Assembly: GCA_956465555.1 (NCBI GenBank) | Contig: OY101117.1 | Coordinates: 2,046,001-2,110,000 of the forward strand | DNA length: 64,000 nucleotides | Reading direction: 5' to 3' | DNA from: Nitzschia sp. pyKryTriq1 | Taxonomy: Eukaryota > Bacillariophyta > Bacillariophyceae > Bacillariales > Bacillariaceae | Shown here: positions 6,598 to 64,000 of the stretch, in pieces | How the letters are laid out: every line of letters starts with the position of its first letter | Position numbering within the stretch: the first letter of the stretch is position 1 | The notes under the pieces: model-generated | The model's input: only the letters and a program-made list of their open reading frames with translations | What the model was told of the DNA's origin: nothing | Databases searched by the model: none | Program-made: the position numbers and the translations under genes

Positions 6598-8316
6598 CTA
6601 CCAAAAACTAGCGGCACCTTTCTTGAAGGGTGGACTCTCACGACATGGTACCTTACTCGGCAAGTCCCGATAGTAACACGTGATATTGGGTTCGGGCAAA
6701 CAACACTCCAAGCCACCCGAGCAACTTCCATATTCGTCTTCCTTCAGGTACCACTCACCAAGCTGCTTGAAATCTGCCAATTTGTATTCCTTACTCTTTG
6801 TAAAACTCATGTGGAAGATGAACGGTTCGATTTCATTGTTGATCATTTGTTTCATATAAGCATAATTGTACTTGAATTCTTTGCCGCCAGGGAAAGGATT
6901 TCCATCGCCCATTCTGATCACTTTGACCCGAAGTCCCTTCCAATTGACGTGTTCGTTCAGCAATACATTCAAAGTATCCTGGTGCGATGACTTTCGAGTG
7001 ACAACATCACCCATTCGAATGAACATTCCATACAAAAATACGGTCAGGTCGTTATTACGGATAAAATGAAAGCCTGAATTGGGGTTGAATGGCTTCCCCG
7101 GACTTCTTCGGTCACCGTCGTCCTGAAAGATCATATCATATCCCTCCATTTCTGGGGAATCAAAAAAAGGCAAAGGATTGCGGTTCCAAACGATGTCAAT
7201 GTCTTGATGAAGCACATTGTACCCAAGACTCAGTACCAAGTGCACACAATATATTTTGGCCATTGAGAACCTGACGAAAGTAGTGTCTCCTGCTCGACCA
7301 GCTGCTTCCTCTGGAAACGATCCAAAGATGGGCTCATCAAACCATGCTGCAAGCCCCAACTCATTACATAAATCAAGGGTGGCTTTATCCGTGGCAATCA
7401 CGACGACATGAGACAAGTCTACGGCACCTTTGGCTCGTGCATTGCAAACAAAATTTCGAAGCAACATGGATTGTCCAATATTGGATGTCATAACCACCAA
7501 GGTGTTGGAACCAGGATCAGTTGCTTTCTCCATTACGTTTTCTAGAAAAGGTTTCAATTCGTCAAGTGCTCGGTCCAGGTTCTGCAAATAGTCCAGGAGA
7601 ACATTGTAGAAGGGAGTTGTGTCCTTTTCCAAGCTGGGCAAGTCGAAATAGCCATCGAACTTGCCCTTTTGGCTATGGGTTCGCGCAACAAGGCTCAAGG
7701 GCTTTTTCATATCGATGTGTCCCGTGCCTTTTATGGGGTCGCTTACCCGCATGAACTTGTGGACGTGATAGGACTCCCATTGAGGCAGAATGGCAAAACA
7801 CTGCCGGGATGAGTCGGAATGGAGATCCTGCAACACGACTTTTACGGTGTCACAGTTTTCTAGTGCATCCTCGGCTGTTAAGGCACTGTCACTGTTTGGA
7901 AGAGTTTTATCATTGGTGTAGAGCACCAACACATCCTCTGCTCCCTTCGTGGTTTTGTCCAATGGAACTCCAACGTCTATCAATTGATTGAACTCATCTC
8001 GTGGAACGGTGGAGTAACCTTGAAACACTTTGGATATGCTTTCTGGAAACACACCTTCGTCCACTGAGAGACTTTCAGCATGATCCAAACCATGCTTTTG
8101 CATGCGCCGTACTCGTACAGGTTCCCGAGCAGGGCTATCGTTGATTAACGGAGTTATACATGGGTCAGAACTCCGGCAGAGGAGAGCCGTGGAAAATCCC
8201 GCCGCAAAACACAAAGCACCCCACGGCAAATTCTTCATCATCCCGCCTGGCGACACATGAGTACCTGGGTGTTGTCGTGTAGGACTACTTGATGGACTAG
8301 ATTTCACTCTCCTCAT
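6598..8316 (-). CDS. GT77-like nucleotide-diphospho-sugar transferase, type II membrane protein
   Basis: A 572-residue single-exon protein. An N-terminal cytoplasmic tail rich in Ser and Arg is followed by one hydrophobic anchor (about residues 29-46), a stem, and a catalytic domain in the second half, which is the topology of Golgi glycosyltransferases. The domain resembles the nucleotide-diphospho-sugar transferase family (Pfam PF03407, CAZy GT77-like): MTSNIGQSMLLRNFVCNAR strand, an LGYNVLHQDIDIVWNRNP block near residue 368 with a DxD metal/sugar-nucleotide site, then FNPNSGFHFIRNN and a KSSHQDTLN segment. Plant relatives transfer xylose or arabinose. Donor and acceptor cannot be told from sequence. 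It diverges from another glycosyltransferase gene starting at 8960. The start ATG at 8316 precedes the anchor and no intron signals break the frame. Confidence 0.8.
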   Translation of the reverse strand: MRRVKSSPSSSPTRQHPGTHVSPGGMMKNLPWGALCFAAGFSTALLCRSSDPCITPLINDSPAREPVRVRRMQKHGLDHAESLSVDEGVFPESISKVFQGYSTVPRDEFNQLIDVGVPLDKTTKGAEDVLVLYTNDKTLPNSDSALTAEDALENCDTVKVVLQDLHSDSSRQCFAILPQWESYHVHKFMRVSDPIKGTGHIDMKKPLSLVARTHSQKGKFDGYFDLPSLEKDTTPFYNVLLDYLQNLDRALDELKPFLENVMEKATDPGSNTLVVMTSNIGQSMLLRNFVCNARAKGAVDLSHVVVIATDKATLDLCNELGLAAWFDEPIFGSFPEEAAGRAGDTTFVRFSMAKIYCVHLVLSLGYNVLHQDIDIVWNRNPLPFFDSPEMEGYDMIFQDDGDRRSPGKPFNPNSGFHFIRNNDLTVFLYGMFIRMGDVVTRKSSHQDTLNVLLNEHVNWKGLRVKVIRMGDGNPFPGGKEFKYNYAYMKQMINNEIEPFIFHMSFTKSKEYKLADFKQLGEWYLKEDEYGSCSGGLECCLPEPNITCYYRDLPSKVPCRESPPFKKGAASFW

Positions 8317-8959
8317 CTTTCTTCAGAATCATTTATGCCGCCGTCCAGGAGAGTTCAACTGATTAAGACAAAGGCAAGGGGAAGATGTGAGATGATTCGA
8401 CGGCACACGTGCAGTTCGAATGTGCGTCGACGACGAAACTATCCCTCCTCGGCGATACCTGGTACCAAGAGTAACATGTTGCGTGACTGCAACAAGTCTT
8501 TGGTATGAATGAATATCGACTCATGACAATAACGAGAGACGGGGAAAAATCACGACACGAGGAAATGGAAATGGATCTTGCTTTACACCAAGCAAGCAAG
8601 GAAATTTCTCCGCAATGATTTTGCCGAAAGGCGCACGTGGGCGCGGACATGCGACCGACGTAGACCCCGGTACAGGATCTACGTGAGAAGATTTCGGGGC
8701 GCGTGCAAGCGACAAGCGATCATCTTTGCGAGTCGTGCCAACAGATGGCGGCCACATATGCCCGCAAAGATACTGTACGATGATCCAGATCATCTCCCTG
8801 CTGCGTCCATTGACGAGTACAGTCCTCGTACAGTACCGGTATTTACCACATCTGCCTGCAGCAATAGAGTTCGAACAGCCGTCACAATCATAATCGTCGA
8901 TCCCTGCTGCACCATTTTCATACTTTGTTTTGAGATTTCATCAGTGAGATAGATGAAAT
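8317..8959. promoter_or_regulatory. Divergent spacer between two glycosyltransferase genes
   Basis: The 643 bp between the starts of the GT77-like and GT61/GT23-like genes. It contains several short GTAC and CGTAC palindromes near 8814-8840, including a TACCGGTA core. An out-of-frame ATG at 8953 overlaps the downstream start. The open frames here have no protein-like features, so I treat it as shared promoter and 5'UTR. Confidence 0.4.
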
Positions 8960-11728
8960 ATGGAGTACAAAGTGTGGCGGCTTCGACTTATATTCCTGAG
9001 TTTGACCATAGCATTTGTCATTTTGAATCTTAGCACTCTTTGGTCATTTACGTACCATGACAATGACAACGAATACAGCATTTCGATAGTTCCGCTGGAT
9101 TCGGATCGACCCTCAGAAGAAGACCAAGTCTCGGGAAGGAGCCGCCATTCTCAAACCAGTGACAAGGACGGCCCGCTTCTAGTGGGCACGTTCAATGGGC
9201 ATGACCTGTACTTCGTGGACGAGCCCCCCAAGAGCAGAGTTCATTGCGTCGGGGATACGTACCAAGAAGAGACTTCTTGGCTGTATCGCTCCTGCGAATA
9301 CACCCAACTTTGTTTTGATCTAGATAGGTTGGACTTTGTCATTTACAAAGACGATATCTCCGCCCCGCTCCCCGAAGGTTGGTATTCCAGCACCCTGCGA
9401 GAGGAGGATCCCGTTACGGGCATGGAAGTGAACGCCAGGCCACGCGATGGTGCGATTCACGCTACCCCCAATTTGCAACCGAAAGGACTGTTTTATCCGC
9501 GTACCATCAATGCCGAGCCCCCTTCCTCGCATTACCAATTGAATGTGACAATAATTCCATTCTTCAGGTACAAAATCGGATACCGAAATCCAGGGCATCA
9601 TCTATGGCAAGATCTCATTTCGCTGTATACATTGATCGAGATGTTTGGAAGAGAGGACACTGAAATTTTGTTGGTGCCACTGAAGCAGAGAATCGCGAAA
9701 AAATACTACCGAGAAGGTGGTGCTGATTTGATGAACAAATGGGGTGCAAAGCTGATGGGCATGCCCAACTTTGACGAGTACAATCCCTTTTGGGAAGACA
9801 GCGACTTTGATTTGCGAATTGCAGGACAACCTGCGTCGCTCAAGTCCCTTTCCTCACGAGTTATCTGCGCCCATGGGCTGACGGGAGTGGGACATTTTTC
9901 GCATCATGAGACCCACCATCAGAATGGAACGCATATTCGAGACCGTCTCATGAATCGGGAACTAGTTCCAGCAAATAATGGAAGGGGAGGGTTCTTTCGA
10001 CGAATGCGACAATTTATGATGCGAAAGGTCGGCATCGAAGGAGGGAAATTAAATTCGAAGCCACGCCTCACCATGCTGTTTTCCCAACATTCGAGCACCA
10101 GAGGGAATCGCGCAAACAACACCTTCCAAACGCAAATAGATTACCTTCAAAGCGTCTTTGCGCAGGCTCAGGTTCAAATTGAGGGTGTAACTCTCTCGAA
10201 AATGACCATTGAAGAGCAGATACAAAAACTTTCGAGCACAGATGTATTTGTGTCAGCCGTGGGTGGAGGGACAGCTTCCGCCTTCTTTCTACCACGTGGC
10301 TCTCATCTAATTCTCTTCTATGAAAGCGGATTGTTGGACTGGGACTATTGGAACAACATCCCGGACATTCACGTTCACTGGATCCCAATTCAACACCTCG
10401 ATGATCCGGCGCATCTTCCGAATCTCAAACTTCTCGTTGAGGAGTGCTTGGGTCTAGCCAAACTATCACCGAGGCAAAGGACTTACAAGTATTTTAGAAT
10501 GGGTCGAATAGCAGCTGGCGAAGAATCGTCAAGAGAAACTGATGACACCACGGCAATGCCGCCGACGTCTCCCACATTCTTGGCTCACGCGAAATCAGGT
10601 CTCTGCAATGGCTACGACGGAATACTGCGAATCTCTCGCGTTTTCAAAAAAGCCGCCACTGGCACATTCTTCTTCCAGTCAATGGTGGATTCTTTGTTAT
10701 ATGCACGACAGCACAATCTCTATCCGTTCATATGGATCGACCAGATGGGGAAAAGTCAGCCATGCTTCGATCCAATTGTGCACGGGAACGAACTGCAAGC
10801 CACGTACTCTCACCTTTTGGGGCACATCAATAGCGTGCATCGCCTCAATGAAACCAGTCAGTGTCGACATGAGCCTGGCCCTCCTGTTTTCAATCAAGTC
10901 AAACAAGGTAACGTCGAGCTGCGAGGAAACGGAATCTGGCAATCTTATTTTCAAATGACACATCCTATTCCCTTCGATGATCTCTCGTGTCACGACAAAC
11001 CGACGTTTTCGTTGTCTCAAACTCAGGTTCTCCCTGGGCTTCATTACTGTTCCGAGACTGCCGTTCGTGGGTGGGTGTATCCGAATCTCGACCCAAGCCT
11101 GAAACCAAACTTATCAAAGAATCAAACCATGAAGGGGTGGCTGACCGAGCATCGGAAACGAGCATCTTCGGTTATTCAGGAACATTTCCGGCTTCAACCC
11201 TGGCTGCAAGAAAAGGTAGATATGGTCCAACCAAAGAACACCCGATGTCTGGCAGTCCACATTCGGTTAACCGACAAGGGCAGCGGGCGAATCAAGCAAG
11301 GGGTTGATTCATACCTGCCATATGTGGAATCTTATGTCAAGGCAACACGGGAGGATCCCGATGCTACCATATTTTTGGCCACGGATGACTCTACCGTTAT
11401 GCACCAATTGCTGAATGCCTCGCAAATCCTCGAATCAAGTCGAATCCGTAGTCAACAAGGCCTCCTGCTATCCGATTCCAATTCCCCAACCTTTTCAACA
11501 TTCAAGGCGGAAAGGCATCGCATCAACACAGAAACCCTGGTCGACATTTATGGGTTGTCCCGTTGTCAATACTTGGTGCATGGTGCTTCGGCAGTGGCCG
11601 AGGCTGCCATTTACCTGAATTTACAATTGGATCAATTCAGTGTAAATATTGACGACGAGAATACTCTGACTCCACGAGAATTTCAAGTCTTGATCGAGTC
11701 GTCGGCAAAACCACCCATAAAACCGTAA
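8960..11728 (+). CDS. Two-domain glycosyltransferase: GT61-like half fused to a fucosyltransferase (GT23-like) half
   Basis: A 922-residue type II membrane protein with an anchor at about residues 10-31. The first catalytic half (about 190-510) looks like GT61 (DUF563): NPGHHLWQDLISLYTLIE, then a VFVSAVGGGTASAFFLPRGS block near residue 430 that corresponds to the GT61 GAGLTN-type site. The second half (about 540-910) resembles GDP-fucose transferases of the GT23/NodZ/FUT8 class: an AVHIRLTDKG motif near residue 766 (the HxRxTDK donor-binding motif), IFLATDDS near 807, and an IYGLSRCQYLVHGASAVAEA motif near 870. Each half is about the length of a stand-alone enzyme. It is one uninterrupted frame, so the fusion is not a splicing guess. 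Likely Golgi, building a branched or fucosylated glycan; substrates unknown. Confidence 0.78.
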   Translation: MEYKVWRLRLIFLSLTIAFVILNLSTLWSFTYHDNDNEYSISIVPLDSDRPSEEDQVSGRSRHSQTSDKDGPLLVGTFNGHDLYFVDEPPKSRVHCVGDTYQEETSWLYRSCEYTQLCFDLDRLDFVIYKDDISAPLPEGWYSSTLREEDPVTGMEVNARPRDGAIHATPNLQPKGLFYPRTINAEPPSSHYQLNVTIIPFFRYKIGYRNPGHHLWQDLISLYTLIEMFGREDTEILLVPLKQRIAKKYYREGGADLMNKWGAKLMGMPNFDEYNPFWEDSDFDLRIAGQPASLKSLSSRVICAHGLTGVGHFSHHETHHQNGTHIRDRLMNRELVPANNGRGGFFRRMRQFMMRKVGIEGGKLNSKPRLTMLFSQHSSTRGNRANNTFQTQIDYLQSVFAQAQVQIEGVTLSKMTIEEQIQKLSSTDVFVSAVGGGTASAFFLPRGSHLILFYESGLLDWDYWNNIPDIHVHWIPIQHLDDPAHLPNLKLLVEECLGLAKLSPRQRTYKYFRMGRIAAGEESSRETDDTTAMPPTSPTFLAHAKSGLCNGYDGILRISRVFKKAATGTFFFQSMVDSLLYARQHNLYPFIWIDQMGKSQPCFDPIVHGNELQATYSHLLGHINSVHRLNETSQCRHEPGPPVFNQVKQGNVELRGNGIWQSYFQMTHPIPFDDLSCHDKPTFSLSQTQVLPGLHYCSETAVRGWVYPNLDPSLKPNLSKNQTMKGWLTEHRKRASSVIQEHFRLQPWLQEKVDMVQPKNTRCLAVHIRLTDKGSGRIKQGVDSYLPYVESYVKATREDPDATIFLATDDSTVMHQLLNASQILESSRIRSQQGLLLSDSNSPTFSTFKAERHRINTETLVDIYGLSRCQYLVHGASAVAEAAIYLNLQLDQFSVNIDDENTLTPREFQVLIESSAKPPIKP

Positions 11729-12394: not shown

Positions 12395-13390
12395 TTACCA
12401 TCCGTTCATTCTCTTTCGGTGACGCTTGAAATCCGGCTCGTTCAGTGGCTTGGTCAGAATGTCCGACGGTTGGTCGTAGGTTCCGATTGGGTGAATTGAG
12501 ACCCATCCCTTCGTCACGTAGCTTCGAAAGTGAAAGAGCTTGTTGTTGAGGAACTTGGTTCGGGGGCGGAACTTGTGGTATCGTGCAATCTCAACTGCCC
12601 CGGAATTATCCTCGAATACTTTGCAGTGTACCTCGGTGCGCGAAGTGTTAATCTCGAAACCGCGTTTCTTCATCTCTCGCAATAAGCTGATAATCGGAAT
12701 GGCTTCTCGGAGCGCATATGATAGTCCCGTAATTTCGCTTTCGGTCGATGACGAATCCAGGAGTTGGCGACTGTGCTGGTTCATCTTGGAGATGTCGTAC
12801 CCAACTTGTGCGAGGTACGCGTGCAAATCGATTAATTGATCGCGTATGGTCGAGGTAGTCGCATTCGTGTCGATGTGACTCTCGCGCACGATAATTTTGA
12901 GGAACAGGATTCCCACTTCGATTCCATCGATAGTGTACTCCTCGGAGTACAGTGTGACCTTATCACGTCCGATCTTGGAGAGGCTGTCGTGAAGTGCGGT
13001 GAACAGCATCATCGAGTCTTGGGCCACTCTAGTTGGAGTGTCCGCGTAGATACGTGCATTCGCTTGCAAGTGTTCTAGCGTGATACTGCCGTAGTGGTCC
13101 AAGTAGTCCTTGGCTGGACCTGCGACGTCGTCCGGATCATCCAAGATGGACATGACGGAGGTGTCCCATCCCATGAGTTTGGATCGCTTCTTGGTTAGCT
13201 CGAGGAAGTCGCGGAGTCCTTCGGGGACACAGTCGAAGAGCTCTTCCGAGAGTTTCTTGGATCCGCTTTGCCAGATCGCAGCACCTTGCTTGGTGTTGTA
13301 GTCGATGACGTCATCTGTCGCCTTGGCTGGCGTCAGAGCGAAGTGGGTTGCTGCAGCGGCAGCAGGAGGGTTGTTGTTGGCGTCAGCCAT
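12395..13390 (-). pseudogene. Copia coding remnant: Gag-like and RNase H-like parts
   Basis: The remaining coding part of the element, about 331 codons. Its first part is Gag-like (LMGWDTSVMSILDDPDD and a following helical region). Its last part resembles the C-terminal RNase H of copia polyproteins: EDNSGAVEIARYHKFRPRT, HFRSYVTKGWVSIHPIG and DILTKPLNEPDFKRHRK. The other pol domains are not present. It is part of a broken element and is not a host gene. Confidence 0.85.
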
Positions 13391-13430
13391 GGTCGATGTT
13401 TGTTTGTTTTACTTTAGCGCAGAGGAAGCG

Positions 13431-14187: not shown

Positions 14188-15189
14188 CTAGGGTATGTCC
14201 CCGCCCGCTACCAGCGAAAAGCTACGAGTTGTAGAAGTCGGCGTGGAACAGACTTGTCGGGCCTGGCCGTTCCCAATTTGCTCGCATGTGCAGGTCTTAG
14301 CGGTGAAATCAGGAGCGACAAAGGTCATCGAGCTACCAGCAACTTGGCAAATAATCGAGTCGGCTGTGCGAACCTGGCAGTAGTTGCACAAAGTCTCCGT
14401 CCCAGAGCAAGTGCAGGAGTACTCAGGTAGCATGTCGCACGTCACCGGAGTGGCGTCACAGAAATTACTACCCTCCTTTTCAAGGCAGAGATAGGAATTG
14501 AATTGGCGTTTGGCTTCGCAGCTCCCCTGGCTCGGTAGCACTCCGGTCGCAACTCCTAGAGTAGGCTCAGGGACAGATTCATCACCAACAACTGGAGCTC
14601 TGATGACGACAGGCGACGGAGTGGTGGGAGCGGTCACGGGAGGTGCAACTGGCGCAACAGGTGGGTCAGTTGGGCGTGGGGTCGGCGTCCAGCAAGTTTG
14701 TCGGGTCTGACCGTTTCCAATATATTCGCAGGAGCAAGTCCTGACGCCTCCCAGGTTAACGTCGGTGTATGTGGTGGAAGATCCAGTAACCTGGCAAAGT
14801 ATATTTGGACCAGGCCTGATATTGGTTTCAAGTCTGCAATAGTTGCAGGATGTCTCGGTCGATCCAGTACAGCTGCATGAATATGTACCACTGCAATCAC
14901 CATCATCACCATCATCATCATCTTTATCATCTTTATCTTTACCATTTCTGTAATCACCATCAAAGAAACTCGATGCAGGGCTGGTTGCCCGACAAACCCC
15001 AGCGGTCTGCATTTGTCGTCGGAGATTACCGGTATGTTTGGGAGACGCCTCCTCGTTGGTGGGATCGATGTAGGAAAAGAAGTCTTCGTACAAGACCATG
15101 CTGCTGGTATTGAGCAGCAGGTTGTCATGAAATTGTTGGCCGGCGACCGGGGCCAAACTCACGACGAGGCAAAGGTTTCGAAAGTTCAT
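14188..15189 (-). CDS. Secreted cysteine-rich protein with two tandem domains
   Basis: A 333-residue protein starting at ATG 15189, where MNFRNLCLVVSLAPVAGQ gives a signal peptide; the frame opens earlier (15279) but without a leader-like sequence. After a propeptide-like stretch and an acidic Asp/Lys run (84-98) come two homologous Cys-rich units, about 99-166 and 251-314. Each has the pattern YSCxCxGxxTxCNYCxxxT, a ILCQVxGSS strand, a TCxCExIGNGQxRQxC end. A Pro/Thr/Val linker rich in VAP and PT repeats (167-215) separates them, like linkers of extracellular cell-wall proteins. Spacing suggests three or four disulfides per unit. I do not recognise the family; a wall- or surface-associated role is inference. 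It diverges from the channel-like gene at 16103. Confidence 0.7.
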   Translation of the reverse strand: MNFRNLCLVVSLAPVAGQQFHDNLLLNTSSMVLYEDFFSYIDPTNEEASPKHTGNLRRQMQTAGVCRATSPASSFFDGDYRNGKDKDDKDDDDGDDGDCSGTYSCSCTGSTETSCNYCRLETNIRPGPNILCQVTGSSTTYTDVNLGGVRTCSCEYIGNGQTRQTCWTPTPRPTDPPVAPVAPPVTAPTTPSPVVIRAPVVGDESVPEPTLGVATGVLPSQGSCEAKRQFNSYLCLEKEGSNFCDATPVTCDMLPEYSCTCSGTETLCNYCQVRTADSIICQVAGSSMTFVAPDFTAKTCTCEQIGNGQARQVCSTPTSTTRSFSLVAGGDIP

Positions 15190-16102
15190 GTTGCAAACGA
15201 GTGTGTGTTTGTATGAACAAGTTTGTGATTTTATGAGATGAGAGTTGCAGCAAAAAAAATATTGTGAGAAATCGCACAATCCGCCAGAACAGGAATTTGG
15301 AGATCGGATTCATCCGAATTAGAAGGGCGGGATCCGTTGCCCTTTCTCCAAATATGCCCCCGGATGGTGGAGACGACCTTGCTTTTTCTTGTCCTTCTAA
15401 TGCACGACCCAGATACATAAGCCCATTGGTTCTCAGCAGATGCAGAAGAATAGCAACAACCTGGCGTTTCAGCCAAGTTTCAGCGAGCGGCTCGTCACGA
15501 CGCACCATATAAAAAAAATGAGCGGAGTAGTTCGTGCTAAAACTCTGAGAACTGGCGATGCTGTCACAGCAAGGGACAACGGCTACTTGAACTACTACTA
15601 GGAACGAATAATACACGACTTCGGTATTATTCAACGCTTTGCCCGTGCATCTATCTACAGTAACACCAACAGGGTATCATGGTACGAGCAGGAGCGGCTC
15701 CATTCCGACGCAAAGCAGGAGGAGACTTCATCCTTCTCTGCTCTAGCTAGTAGAGTCCACTATGAAGCAGAGCCACCGTGCGTGTCTGTCATGTAGCATG
15801 ATAGCTACCCCAAAAATTATTAATGCTCCAGCATGCATCAAGAGAGACAACAGCTCTGGCTATTGAGTTGCTTGCTCCCGCACACTGACTGAGACTGTTT
15901 TACAGTAATAGAAAATGCAGCGAAACAACGCTCACGAAAGTGAAAAGGCGACTCGTACGACTCGAAGAATCTCAAAAGTCATTAGCAGAACAGAAGAACA
16001 AATCTTGAGCCATCACAGCCGTTGAAAGAACAACTGTTTGCTATTGTCGACATACAATGCCATTGAGGAAAGCAAAAGCCCATTCACCAAAGGACGAAGC
16101 CC
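15190..16102. promoter_or_regulatory. Divergent spacer (cysteine-rich gene / channel-like gene)
   Basis: 913 bp of 5' flank for two genes. It contains CTAGCTAGTAG near 15743 and a short ATG-started frame at 16057 that overlaps the downstream start out of frame, a possible upstream ORF. The longer open frame on the minus strand (15125-15634) crosses the neighbouring start and has no domain, so I do not call it. Confidence 0.4.
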
Positions 16103-17091: not shown

Positions 17092-19516
17092 TCATGAATG
17101 GCCACCCCGGGCATTCGCTTTCTTGACAAAACGCAAAAAACGTTCATGTGTATTCGTCATCATACCCGGGGTCTTGTGTGGATGCAATGTTATGGTATTG
17201 GGTAGCTCCCTAGCTCGGGGGAAATTGTTGGAACCACGAAAGTTGTGCGCAAAGGCATCCCCCCGATAGGACTTTTCGTCCCAACACCCGATTCCGATGC
17301 GACGTTGGAGACATATTCCAAAAACAACATCATCGTACACCACAGTTTGATTTTTTAGGGCGTCATTGATACAATTTCGAATGTTGTCCACCAGAATTCG
17401 AAACGTGTGTTTTGCCATGAGAATACCAGTTCCGCCCATGCAGTACGGTTTTTCCAACCCGCTCTTTTGGAGCATCTCACGAATCGCCATTGCGCCGTTG
17501 CCCCGTTTACCGATATATGCGTGTTGACGAAAGTCTCGTTTCACAAGGAACTCCTGAAGTCCGTCCACATTCACATAGGTGTCGTCGTCGACATCAAAGA
17601 CCCAGTTCACATTGTTCTCTTTCGACTCTCGCTTCAGTTTTAAAATTGCCTCGTCCATGTGTTCCAATACGGCTGCGGCCTTTTGAACCAACGGATACTC
17701 GTCGTCTTGAACACCCTTCATGACCACAATCGTGCTGTTGTCAAGAATTCCTGCTTCTTTTGCCAGTGTTGTAATGTCGTCATCCGAACCACTAGCGTAA
17801 GGGACGGACTTGTCAACTAGATCTCCCACATAGAATCGAACAAATACACCTTTTGGTAGATCCTTTGCCCACGTCTGCACAAGCTCGGCCACACGAGTCG
17901 AGAAGGTTGCTCTAGACGCAGTCACACCGATAAGAATTCCTCCGGCATTTGATCCCTTGAGTTGAGGAAGCGTTTGATTCGTGAAAGCGAGTGCTTGGAT
18001 AGTCTCTAGCTTTGCCCTATGTCTGCTGCGGGATTTCGCCGCCGCGCTATACAGCTTCGACTCGATAATGAACGCAACAATTTGACTGAAGTGCCGCGAC
18101 GAGGCAAGAACTCCGTGGACTATCGAGCTATCGGCAGCATTCCAGCGAACTAAAAATTGGCCAAAGTTGGATCCTTCCATGGTGTCCCGAGACTTGACGC
18201 TGTGCAAAAACAAACGGACATTGTGTGAGCATGCACCACTCGTCGATCAGAAGCCCCACCCCCACCTGGTGCCAAATCACGGTCATCTCTTACCATCCTC
18301 GTAGTTTGTCCGGCTCGACAAAACCTGTGAGATCGCACACTTTAGCGTGCCATCTATGAACCAAGTCGTATTCCCTTTCGCGGACAACCGTGATGTTAGG
18401 AGTCTCGCGCACACGCCAGTAGAATTCATTATCCTCCCCTCCCCATCCTTATCAATTCATTCACGTTGTACGCGGAAGTAACAGCGTCAGAACAATGCAG
18501 TACAGTACGAGAACTACCTGTTCGAGCTCCGCCATCCAAGCTAGTTTCCACACAAACTCACCTGTGAACGATTCATTCATTTTGTGGAGAGAAACATCTG
18601 CGCCTGACACAGCGTACATTCCATAGCCAAAAATGCGCCACAACCCCCGATGTTTGGAATATTTATGCTGTGGACCCAAGAATTGTTCCACCAGCATCGT
18701 GTTGCTCGGTCGATACTGCGAGAATACAATGGGAAAATAGAAACGACTCTTGGCAACCTCCGCAAGGGAATTGAACAAAAACCTCGGACCTACATCCATA
18801 TCAACGTCCACAATGGCCAGGACAGATGTGTTGTCTTGTTTGGTTGCATTGTGCAAGAGATTAATGGCATAGGCACGATGGAATTTCGGCTCGTTGGTCG
18901 TAGCAAAGACAACCCTATCTTTCGGGAGAGCTGCTTCCGCTGCCAACCGCTCTCGGAAGCTGCTAGATGTATCGTCCTGCGAATACCGAGTGACTATGGC
19001 ACGAATGGTGACACCATCATCTGCCGAGCGATCAGTCCGCCGATAAAACCCTTCGATCGCGTTGCCGAGAGTACGGAATAACTCCAGCAACTTCTGATCT
19101 TGACCCGACACGGGAATCCCAATATCAATGTTGGTATTCGTAAGTGGCGTCGTCCAGTCAATAGGAGGTAGGAGACCATCTGGAATGGAGGCTTCATCTC
19201 TCGTTTCCTCGTCAATCCGATCTTGGGATTCATCGGGCTGATGCTTCCGCGACGACAACAACGACGTTGGACCTTCAAATTCTTTCTCAAAGGTCTCCGA
19301 CAGCCGCTGAGCCTCCTCTGTAGACACATTGTTGGAATGGTTACTACCGGTAGAGGGTTCGGTTTGCTGCTCTTCAAGGTCAATTAAGCGTTGGAAAGCC
19401 CAGATATTGTAAGATGCCAATGTCAACGACACTGCAATCATGGAGACTAAAATTACAATTGTGTTGATTCGCGGCCGAAAGGTACGTGTACCTCGCGTTT
19501 TCGGAGACGACAGCAT
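17092..19516 (-). CDS. Chondroitin-synthase-like bifunctional glycosyltransferase with swapped domains (GT7-type then GT31-type)
   Basis: Three exons (19516-18562, 18447-18294, 18199-17092; introns 114 and 94 bp) give 738 residues with frame kept at both junctions. An anchor at about 17-41 indicates a Golgi type II protein. The first domain matches chondroitin N-acetylgalactosaminyltransferases: LAIVDVDMDVGPRFLF near residue 238, FPIVFSQYRPSN, HRGLWRIFGYGM, and, encoded by exon 2, GWGGEDNEFYWRV with DLVHRWHAKVC. Exon 3 finishes this domain and then encodes a Fringe-like GT31 domain with VNWVFDVDDDTYVNVDGL near residue 571 and PYCMGGTGILMA. Animal chondroitin synthases carry both domains in the opposite order. 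The exons could be misread as two genes, but the GT7 C-terminal GWGGED and HRWH elements only fit if joined. The polymer made is unknown. Confidence 0.8.
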
Positions 19517-61670: not shown

Positions 61671-63121
61671 TTATGCTTCTTGCTTGTTCAAGGCGGCGAT
61701 CTCGGGCGCATCAGGTCCCATGATAGTAGTCATGATCTTTCCAGTCACGACGTAAGGGTCGGCGTTGGAAGAGGGTCGACGGTCCTCGAAATATCCCTTT
61801 CCTTCGGCCATGGTGTCACGTCCAATACGGATGGAGGCACCCCGGTTGGCAACACCGTAAGAAAAGTCGTTGATGGAGGCAGTCTCGTGCTTTCCGGTCA
61901 AACGAAGCTCATTTCCTTCGCCATAGACAGCAATGTGTTCAGCATGTTTTGATCCCAACTTGTAGATGGCCTTCTTGATGACTTCCAAACCACCTTCCTC
62001 TCGCATCTTCTTGGTCGACACGTTGGTGTGCATACCAGCTCCGTTCCAGTCTCCTTCGACAATGGGCTTGGGGTGAAGAGTGCAGAAAACTTGGAAATCT
62101 TCGCAAACTCGTTGCAAGAGGTATCGGGACATCATGAGTTGGTCACCAGCATCGATTCCGACACATGGTCCAACCTGGTATTCTTGCTGTCCAGGCATGA
62201 CTTCTCCGTTGGTTCCCGAAATCTCGATTCCAGCATACAAACAGGCCTTGTAGTGTGCGTCAGTGATATCACGCCCGAAACTGTTCTCGGGTCCAACAGA
62301 GCAGTAATATGGGCCTTGGGGGCGGCTGGGCATGCCACCTTCGGGCCAACCGAGAGGAGTTCGCTCGTCAAGGTTGAAGAGGGTAAATTCTTGTTCCAAT
62401 CCGAACCAAATTTCTTCGTCTTCTTTTCCGGCGAATGCCTTTTCAGCTGTCGTGGTCAAAACATAAAAACGTGAAATAATGAGAAATCGAATACGGGAAA
62501 TTTTTGGCAGACATGTTACGGAAATGACACAACCTATCAATAGGAAGGACTTACCAACAGCACGAGCATTAGTCGGAAGTGGCTCTCCGGCAGGAGTCCA
62601 GGTATCGCACATGACCAAAATGTTGTCAATACCGTCACTTCTGGCACGGAAAGGGTCCTTGAAAATTCTGCAAGGTCGGAGAATGACCTCCGAATCGTCT
62701 CCAGGGGCTTGTCCAGTAGAGCTTCCATCGAAGTTCCACTTGGGGAGGCTCTCGACGCTGGCGGCCTGGTAAAGCAAAATAATAATTGTGAGGAAAGCGG
62801 TGACAGGTTTAGATAATGATCTATTCAAACGTTGGATTTGTCGAGTAAACAACTCACCTTGGCGACAGGAAGAGTTCGGGTCTTGGAACGGCAGTTTCCG
62901 GCGGCGTCAACCCAGACATATTCAGCCAACACCTTGTCGGCGGGGAAAGGAAGAGCGTCGTATTTGGCGATAACGGCGGGGTCCAAGGCCGACTTTCCTG
63001 TGATCTTGCCTAGCACACCAGACATGTGCAAGGCCGACGACTGGCGTTGTGGGTTGGCAGGGGCAAAGGCCGAAGTTTGCACGGCCCAAGCCGCAAGTGT
63101 GATAGCACAAGCAAATTTCAT
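61671..63121 (-). CDS. GLN2: Plastid glutamine synthetase, type II (GSII)
   Basis: Joins ammonium to glutamate using ATP; in diatoms the plastid enzyme takes up nitrite-derived ammonium. Exons 63121-62858, 62765-62555 and 62446-61671 give 416 residues; introns are 92 and 108 bp. The leader [21 protein letters not shown] is a signal peptide ending in a perfect SAFAP site, then a transit peptide ([13 protein letters not shown]). Catalytic landmarks: [51 protein letters not shown] (Glu ligands), [67 protein letters not shown] and [13 protein letters not shown]. All conserved. Intron 2 is a multiple of three and stop-free, so one longer frame also reads across it. Confidence 0.95.
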
Positions 63122-64000
63122 CGTTTCTTTTTTAAAGTTTGCAGAAGACTGTCGAAGGAGAAAAATTATGACCGTCGAGAAGCGGACCGATCGCCGATGG
63201 ACTGATGCATGGATGGCCGTCGAAGATCTTGTTTTGATGCCGAATGCCGATCTCTCGAGTTTCCGCCTTGCGCGGTATCTTTTTGACGGAAACGAGAACC
63301 CAGATCGGCAGTGCCCGCCATGTAAACGTAGAGATCGACCAATCTGACTAAATGAAAATGCCGGATGATGAGTACCGGGCACGAGATTCCGTAATATTTT
63401 CCGGAACTTGGTTCGATTGGAGGCCACGTAAGCCGACACAAATATGCCTATCCGTCACTTCGCCTCCTAGCCATGTCATTGAGACCAATGAAAATAAACT
63501 ACTAGCTAGTAGTAGGAGTGAAGATGGCGCAAGATGAAGTACCAGTAGATTCATTCAAGATACCGCTATCAGTACTTGCATTCTCTACTGTACTACCGGT
63601 ACGTACTCTCTCTACCAGTTAGTAGAGAGAGTGTCGAGGAGTCGTCAGATTCTGTTCCATCGTCCATTTCCATTGGAAGGAAGCATTCGCCATGGTTTGT
63701 GTCTTGCAAATGCCAATAAATCGACTTCGAGTTGGGAGCACATACAGCGGCTGAGAACTTTGAACTTGCAATAGGTCTCTCTTCTCTACAGCTACCACAT
63801 CATCTTGGTCGTATTTTGTTCGTTCCCTCCCGTTTTTGTTAGTCACACTCCCACTGTTCGAGTACCTGTAGTACAGCAGGGCTAGTTGAGTCATGAAACA
63901 CGAATTGGCTTTTCGAGGAGAGGTCGAGCGTCGTCCTCTACCCAACTCGTTCATCTCGTCACGAGTACCAATACTCAAGCTACTACTATTAGACTTTGGA
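63122..64000. promoter_or_regulatory. Promoter side of glutamine synthetase; hairpin and palindromes
   Basis: 879 bp to the window end. It holds CTACTAGCTAGTAGTAG near 63493, TACCGGTACGTAC near 63596, and a perfect inverted repeat with 11-bp arms at 63605-63615 and 63622-63632 (6-bp loop). A minus-strand open frame (63619-63978) lacks an ATG and protein-like features. No gene seen. Confidence 0.5.

Follow-up and report, generated by a model that had tools for sequence, protein, structure and literature searches.

The minus strand of the 64,000-nt stretch of Nitzschia sp. DNA analysed here (the window) carries a three-exon gene that runs from an ATG at 19516 to a stop codon at 17092..17094 and would encode a 738-residue protein with a single terminal stop. 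The gene model, including both introns, is predicted from sequence; among 144 junction combinations tried, only one has GT-AG borders at both introns, and this one yields the 738-residue product. Exon 1 (19516..18562) encodes a short N-terminal tail, a hydrophobic stretch, a stalk and, from about residue 130, a GT7 glycosyltransferase domain with its DxD motif (D237 and D239). Intron 1 (18561..18448; 114 nt) splits the first glycine codon of the GWGGED motif, and exon 2 (18447..18294) supplies the GT7 core with GWGGED (E323 and D324) and HRWHAKVC (H349 and H352). Intron 2 (18293..18200; 94 nt) would, if retained, introduce an immediate TAA in the exon 2 frame. Exon 3 (18199..17092) encodes the end of GT7 (to about residue 385), a linker (about 386–455) and a GT31/Fringe-like domain (about 456–725) with the motifs WVFDVDDD, YDDV and TLHPHK. 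These coordinates and junctions are exactly those proposed in an earlier note on this DNA, and the motifs named there are all present: GWGGED across intron 1, HRWHAKVC in exon 2 and VFDVDDD in exon 3.

Two further glycosyltransferase-like genes bring the number within about 13 kb to three, an observation of proximity only. The product of 6601–8322 (minus strand) belongs to the nucleotide-diphospho-sugar transferases (PF03407, E = 6.7e-28). The 923-residue frame at 8957–11725 (plus strand) has a GT61-like stretch at residues 340–451 (E = 1.1e-5) and a FUT8-like stretch at 752–818 (E = 0.0022), both weak and under the Pfam cut-offs, and is possibly another fused two-domain glycosyltransferase. 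Neither product has a match in the PDB at E = 1 or better. Between these genes and the GT7-GT31 gene lie two minus-strand frames without a Pfam match at E = 0.01: 12395–13408, which by eye resembles the terminal RNase H part of a Ty1/copia-type retroelement, and 14188–15309, which is Cys-rich and possibly secreted, and in which a cysteine pattern occurs twice, by eye, together with a Pro-rich spacer. Towards the far end of the window, 61671–63454 (minus strand) encodes glutamine synthetase (PF00120), and the upstream frame (62825..63454) contains the sequence SAFAP, resembling the ASAFAP plastid-targeting motif described for two diatoms and other algae (PMC4329603), a feature that points indirectly to a diatom.

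Pfam profiles place both catalytic domains on the 738-residue protein, GT7 ahead of GT31. CHGN (PF05679, GT7) matches residues 172–377 (E = 1.8e-30; 106.7 bits against a cut-off of 23), the better of two CHGN stretches, and Fringe (PF02434, GT31) matches residues 457–674 (E = 8.8e-16; 58.4 bits against a cut-off of 21). Weaker matches are to Glyco_transf_7C (E = 7.4e-6) and, below its cut-off, Galactosyl_T (E = 0.022). NCBIfam profiles gave no match for exon 1, exon 3 or the two neighbouring glycosyltransferase genes. The GT7 domain starts ahead of the best Pfam stretch, near residue 130, where IDIGIPVSGQ aligns with VHILVPLIGR of CHSY3.

The resemblance to animal chondroitin synthase is crossed. 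Among all PDB chains the top match to the whole protein is CHSY3 (9q8z_B, E = 4.2e-31), with residues 527–725 aligned to chain residues 74–261 and residues 194–377 to chain residues 529–708. CHSY3 is also the closest solved structure for each half taken alone, bearing out the description of the enzyme as chondroitin-synthase-like. For the GT31 half it comes first at E = 1.5e-16, followed among other proteins by CHPF (6.6e-5) and a beta-1,3-glucosyltransferase (5.6e-4); C1GALT1 (0.19), B3GALT5 (0.55) and Manic Fringe (1.3) lie at noise level amid unrelated proteins. For the GT7 half it comes first at E = 5.1e-13, followed by the K4 chondroitin synthase (0.77) and B4GALT7 (0.79 and 1.2). When each half is aligned locally with its own CHSY3 counterpart, GT7 scores 156 and GT31 scores 218, while 200 shuffles reach no more than 54 and 43, respectively; the two cross-pairs of each half with the other CHSY3 domain give 29 and 31, which shuffled sequences also attain. 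Global alignment scores 207 against the native CHSY3 chain and 291 against a construct in which the CHSY3 domains are swapped and the middle segment is omitted, a gain that is partly due to the omission; 100 shuffles of the swapped-order alignment gave a mean of 8 and a maximum of 24. The domain order is thus opposite to that of the animal enzyme, as the earlier note had proposed, with an identity to CHSY3 of about 24–29% per domain. A structure predicted for the exon 3 product by itself, from the single sequence, was of unusable quality (mean pLDDT 34.7).

The active-site residues named for CHSY3 are almost completely retained. In its GT31 domain these are R187, D231, Y233, K238, D261, D262, D263, H394, K397 and the base D342, and in its GT7 domain P626, R630, R697, D718, D720, E806, D807 (the base), H831 and H834 (PMC12748766). 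All 10 GT31 residues have identical equivalents here (R472, D536, Y538, K543, D574, D575, D576, H709, K712 and D660, the last aligned with the catalytic base D342). In GT7 the equivalents are P135, Gln139, R214, D237, D239, E323, D324, H349 and H352, so that the set formed by DxD, the E/D pair and the histidines is complete (6/6) and two of the three residues of the proposed donor site are kept. The replacement of R630 by Gln139 is the sole departure among the 19 sites; the donor contact of R630 in CHSY3 is a proposal from superposition, and R630 is not among the mutants described (PMC12748766). In CHSY3, D261N/D263N, D718N/D720N and H831A each lose the respective transfer and H394A nearly loses it (PMC12748766), and every residue whose mutation had such an effect is kept in the diatom protein. 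As a control we compared CHPF, which is inactive (PMC12748766), at the 17 sites covered by a printed alignment that goes by way of a CHSY1 sequence entered by hand: CHPF keeps 5 of these and the diatom protein all 17. By sequence, then, this is an intact gene for a two-domain enzyme with CHSY-type halves in reverse order.

The protein has one strong hydrophobic segment only (about residues 17–40), as expected of a type II Golgi enzyme, and a stalk (residues 41–127) rich in Glu, Asp, Ser and Thr. In the animal complex CHSY3 and CHPF are joined via their middle domains by strand swapping, and both the complex and its activity require CHPF or CHPF2 (PMC12748766). The linker between the diatom glycosyltransferase domains is about 70 residues long, against 219 for the CHSY3 middle segment, and a phmmer search with this segment found no match in the 738-residue protein, although a strongly diverged domain could escape. 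Nor does the 64,000-nt window contain a second, CHPF-like gene, the GT7 and GT31 profiles matching this gene only. That no middle domain was found suggests action without a CHPF-like partner, as is stated for the bacterial polymerase (PMC12748766); the dependence of the animal enzymes on CHPF or CHPF2 counts against this.

The earlier note had located the seam between the domains within exon 3, and this is what we find: the exon completes GT7 (C370 and S373) and enters GT31 in one frame, so that a single open frame runs from the Cys/Ser tail of GT7 across the linker and through the entire GT31 domain. Methionine is absent between residues 377 and 530, and a separate GT31 protein would therefore either miss the first strand of the domain or start inside GT7, in each case without an anchor. 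We also applied a codon model trained on 11 long frames found elsewhere in the window (7,805 codons). The annotated frame outscores the other five in all seven segments of the gene, including the linker, which is the weakest segment at 0.048 bits per codon (no other frame exceeds −0.184). Because intron 2 scores 0.029 bits per codon in its best frame, barely below the linker, the codon test does not by itself prove the linker to be coding; the open frame through the linker and the methionine-free interval carry more weight as evidence for one gene. We consequently judge it very unlikely that the locus comprises two separate genes or reflects an annotation or assembly artefact. Such readings could draw on the weak codon signal of the linker, on the fact that both introns are predicted from sequence and on the prospect that retention of intron 2 would end translation just after the GT7 histidines and leave GT31 out. 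Against them stand the position of the seam inside an open exon in the top-scoring frame, the truncated or anchorless form that a separate GT31 protein would take, and a hydrophobicity maximum of just 1.15 beyond the first 60 residues.

On balance we favour the view that this single gene encodes a Golgi-type dual glycosyltransferase that builds an alternating beta-1,4/beta-1,3 polysaccharide and needs no CHPF-like partner. We infer the Golgi location, both activities, the linkages, their alternation, the sugars and the partner independence from the features above. The enzyme would be a single-pass type II Golgi protein with both glycosyltransferase domains on one chain. Using UDP-sugars as donors and a divalent metal bound by DxD and histidine, its N-terminal GT7 domain would form beta-1,4 linkages, with GalNAc as the sugar expected from homology to CHSY and Gal as another possibility, and its C-terminal GT31 domain would form beta-1,3 linkages, for which homology points to GlcA. 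The presence of two seemingly intact sites in the same protein suggests that the transfers alternate: both would act in turn on the same growing chain, probably distributively as has been proposed for CHSY3-CHPF, and independently of a partner, like the bacterial K4 polymerase.

GalNAc and GlcA are the sugars expected by homology, but at 24–29% identity the donors may have changed, and the product is not necessarily chondroitin. Genes for UDP-GlcA are predicted in diatoms, and glucuronic acid is treated as a regular component in a review of diatom polysaccharides whose main text contains none of the terms N-acetylgalactosamine, GalNAc, galactosamine and chondroitin (PMC4584364). UDP-GalNAc appears in the legend of a figure on diatom sugar pathways (PMC5932028).

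The same fold and the same alternation could accordingly serve other sugars, with GT7 acting as a beta-1,4 galactosyltransferase and GT31 as a beta-1,3 GlcNAc-, Gal- or Glc-transferase that together make a chain resembling lactosamine or a galactan and perhaps sulfated. We regard this as rather unlikely, even though several donors are used among GT31 and GT7 enzymes, and the glutamine at the R630 position and the low identity leave room for a changed donor. Red algae offer precedents: homologues of chondroitin synthase and of GalNAc transferase are candidate galactosyltransferases for agar (PMC9127767), and Chondrus GT7 enzymes are candidates for carrageenan (PMC7359372). Among solved GT31 and GT7 enzymes, however, the match to CHSY3 stands far above those to C1GALT1, B3GALT5, Manic Fringe and B4GALT7. 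Carrageenan, moreover, also contains alpha linkages, which inverting GT7 and GT31 enzymes would not make. An enzyme that does not polymerise at all and places a fixed two-sugar unit onto a glycoprotein or glycolipid seems to us distinctly improbable: sequence does not prove repetition, but CHSY3, which both domains match best among solved enzymes, is a polymerase, and the other fused dual glycosyltransferases considered here, K4CP and LARGE1, are described as making alternating chains.

Beyond the favoured reading of an alternating polymerase, we put forward, as less likely than not, the more specific possibility that a chondroitin-type GT7 and a CHSY-type GT31 were fused independently in the diatom lineage, in the reverse of the animal order and without the middle domain that forms the dimer, to give a self-sufficient polymerase of a glycosaminoglycan-type chain undescribed in diatoms, its functional order being convergent with that of the K4 polymerase.

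Searches for relatives covered prokaryotic and viral sequence. The full protein found no relative among prokaryote genome contigs or viral contigs; nor did an alignment of GT31 among viral contigs, an alignment of GT7 among viral and prokaryote contigs, or each single domain among viral contigs. Each of these scans used between 2 and 6 short peptide patterns and may therefore miss distant relatives. With tblastn, the GT31 half found nothing in plasmids and the GT7 half nothing in phages. The DNA pattern for GWGGED[D/N][D/E] retrieved 85 viral stretches, from all of which we took six-frame open reading frames of at least 60 residues. A GT7 profile made from the query and CHSY3 matched 66 of the 85 at E ≤ 0.01 (best 3.7e-8), as expected for a pattern taken from the GT7 motif; tblastn of the whole protein gave 0.007 at best, and the GT31 profile matched none. 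The viral stretches thus contain distant GT7-like enzymes without a GT7-GT31 fusion. No sequence with both domains emerged from the prokaryote and viral contig scans, and a viral or bacterial origin is unsupported by these scans and by the tblastn searches of plasmids with the GT31 half and of phages with the GT7 half.

If active, the diatom enzyme would be a polymerase of the CHSY type, and one that may be able to work without CHPF. It would also mean that the GT7/GT31 pair has been joined more than once or rearranged, and hence that the chemistry does not dictate the order of the domains; the GT7-then-GT31 order may be common among protists. It would further indicate that algae of major ecological importance make an alternating polysaccharide not yet characterised, and provide a concrete gene with which to find it.

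Red algae have already been reported to contain GT7 relatives of chondroitin synthase. Chondroitin synthase homologues are annotated in Gracilaria changii (PMC9127767), and the Chondrus GT7 members have their closest non-algal homologues among the animal enzymes that synthesise chondroitin sulfate (PMC7359372), so the mere presence of a chondroitin-synthase-like gene in an alga is no novelty. A study of the green alga Caulerpa reports no match for chondroitin synthase and ascribes the enzyme to red algae (PMC7554865). Set beside the diatom gene by their published descriptions, the red-algal genes share its GT7, chondroitin-synthase-like character, but the passages describing them mention neither a GT31 part nor a domain order, and the term GT31 occurs zero times in the two main texts (PMC9127767, PMC7359372). 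The literature searched, which included few subscription papers and in which the reversed order was not queried by name, yielded no GT7-GT31 fusion and no diatom chondroitin synthase gene; this does not show their absence from print.

Animal CHSY1 and CHSY3, in which GT31 is followed by a middle domain and GT7 and which work with CHPF or CHPF2, share with the diatom protein two homologous catalytic domains and an N-terminal hydrophobic anchor, but differ from it in their domain order, in the middle domain that was not detected here and in the arginine at position 630, as well as in sequence. LARGE1 and the exostosins (GT47 plus GT64) are likewise described as fused dual glycosyltransferases that make an alternating polymer with GlcA (PMC9746966, PMC9178029), from other family pairs than GT7 and GT31. 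A parallel in presumed function is E. coli K4CP, which consists of one polypeptide and is described as acting as a monomer (PMC12748766). Its N-terminal A1 domain transfers GalNAc and its C-terminal A2 domain GlcA (PMC7826918), the GalNAc-type domain coming first as we propose for the diatom enzyme. The K4CP domains belong to family GT2, and bacterial and protist chondroitin polymerases of this family (GT2-CHS) have been placed adjacent to GT7 (PMC7185993). The match of the diatom GT7 half to the K4CP structure (2z87) is non-significant (E = 0.77), and K4CP does not appear for the GT31 half in the PDB search at E = 10. By presumed function, a GalNAc-first, GlcA-second order therefore already exists, in K4CP, where it is built from GT2 domains.
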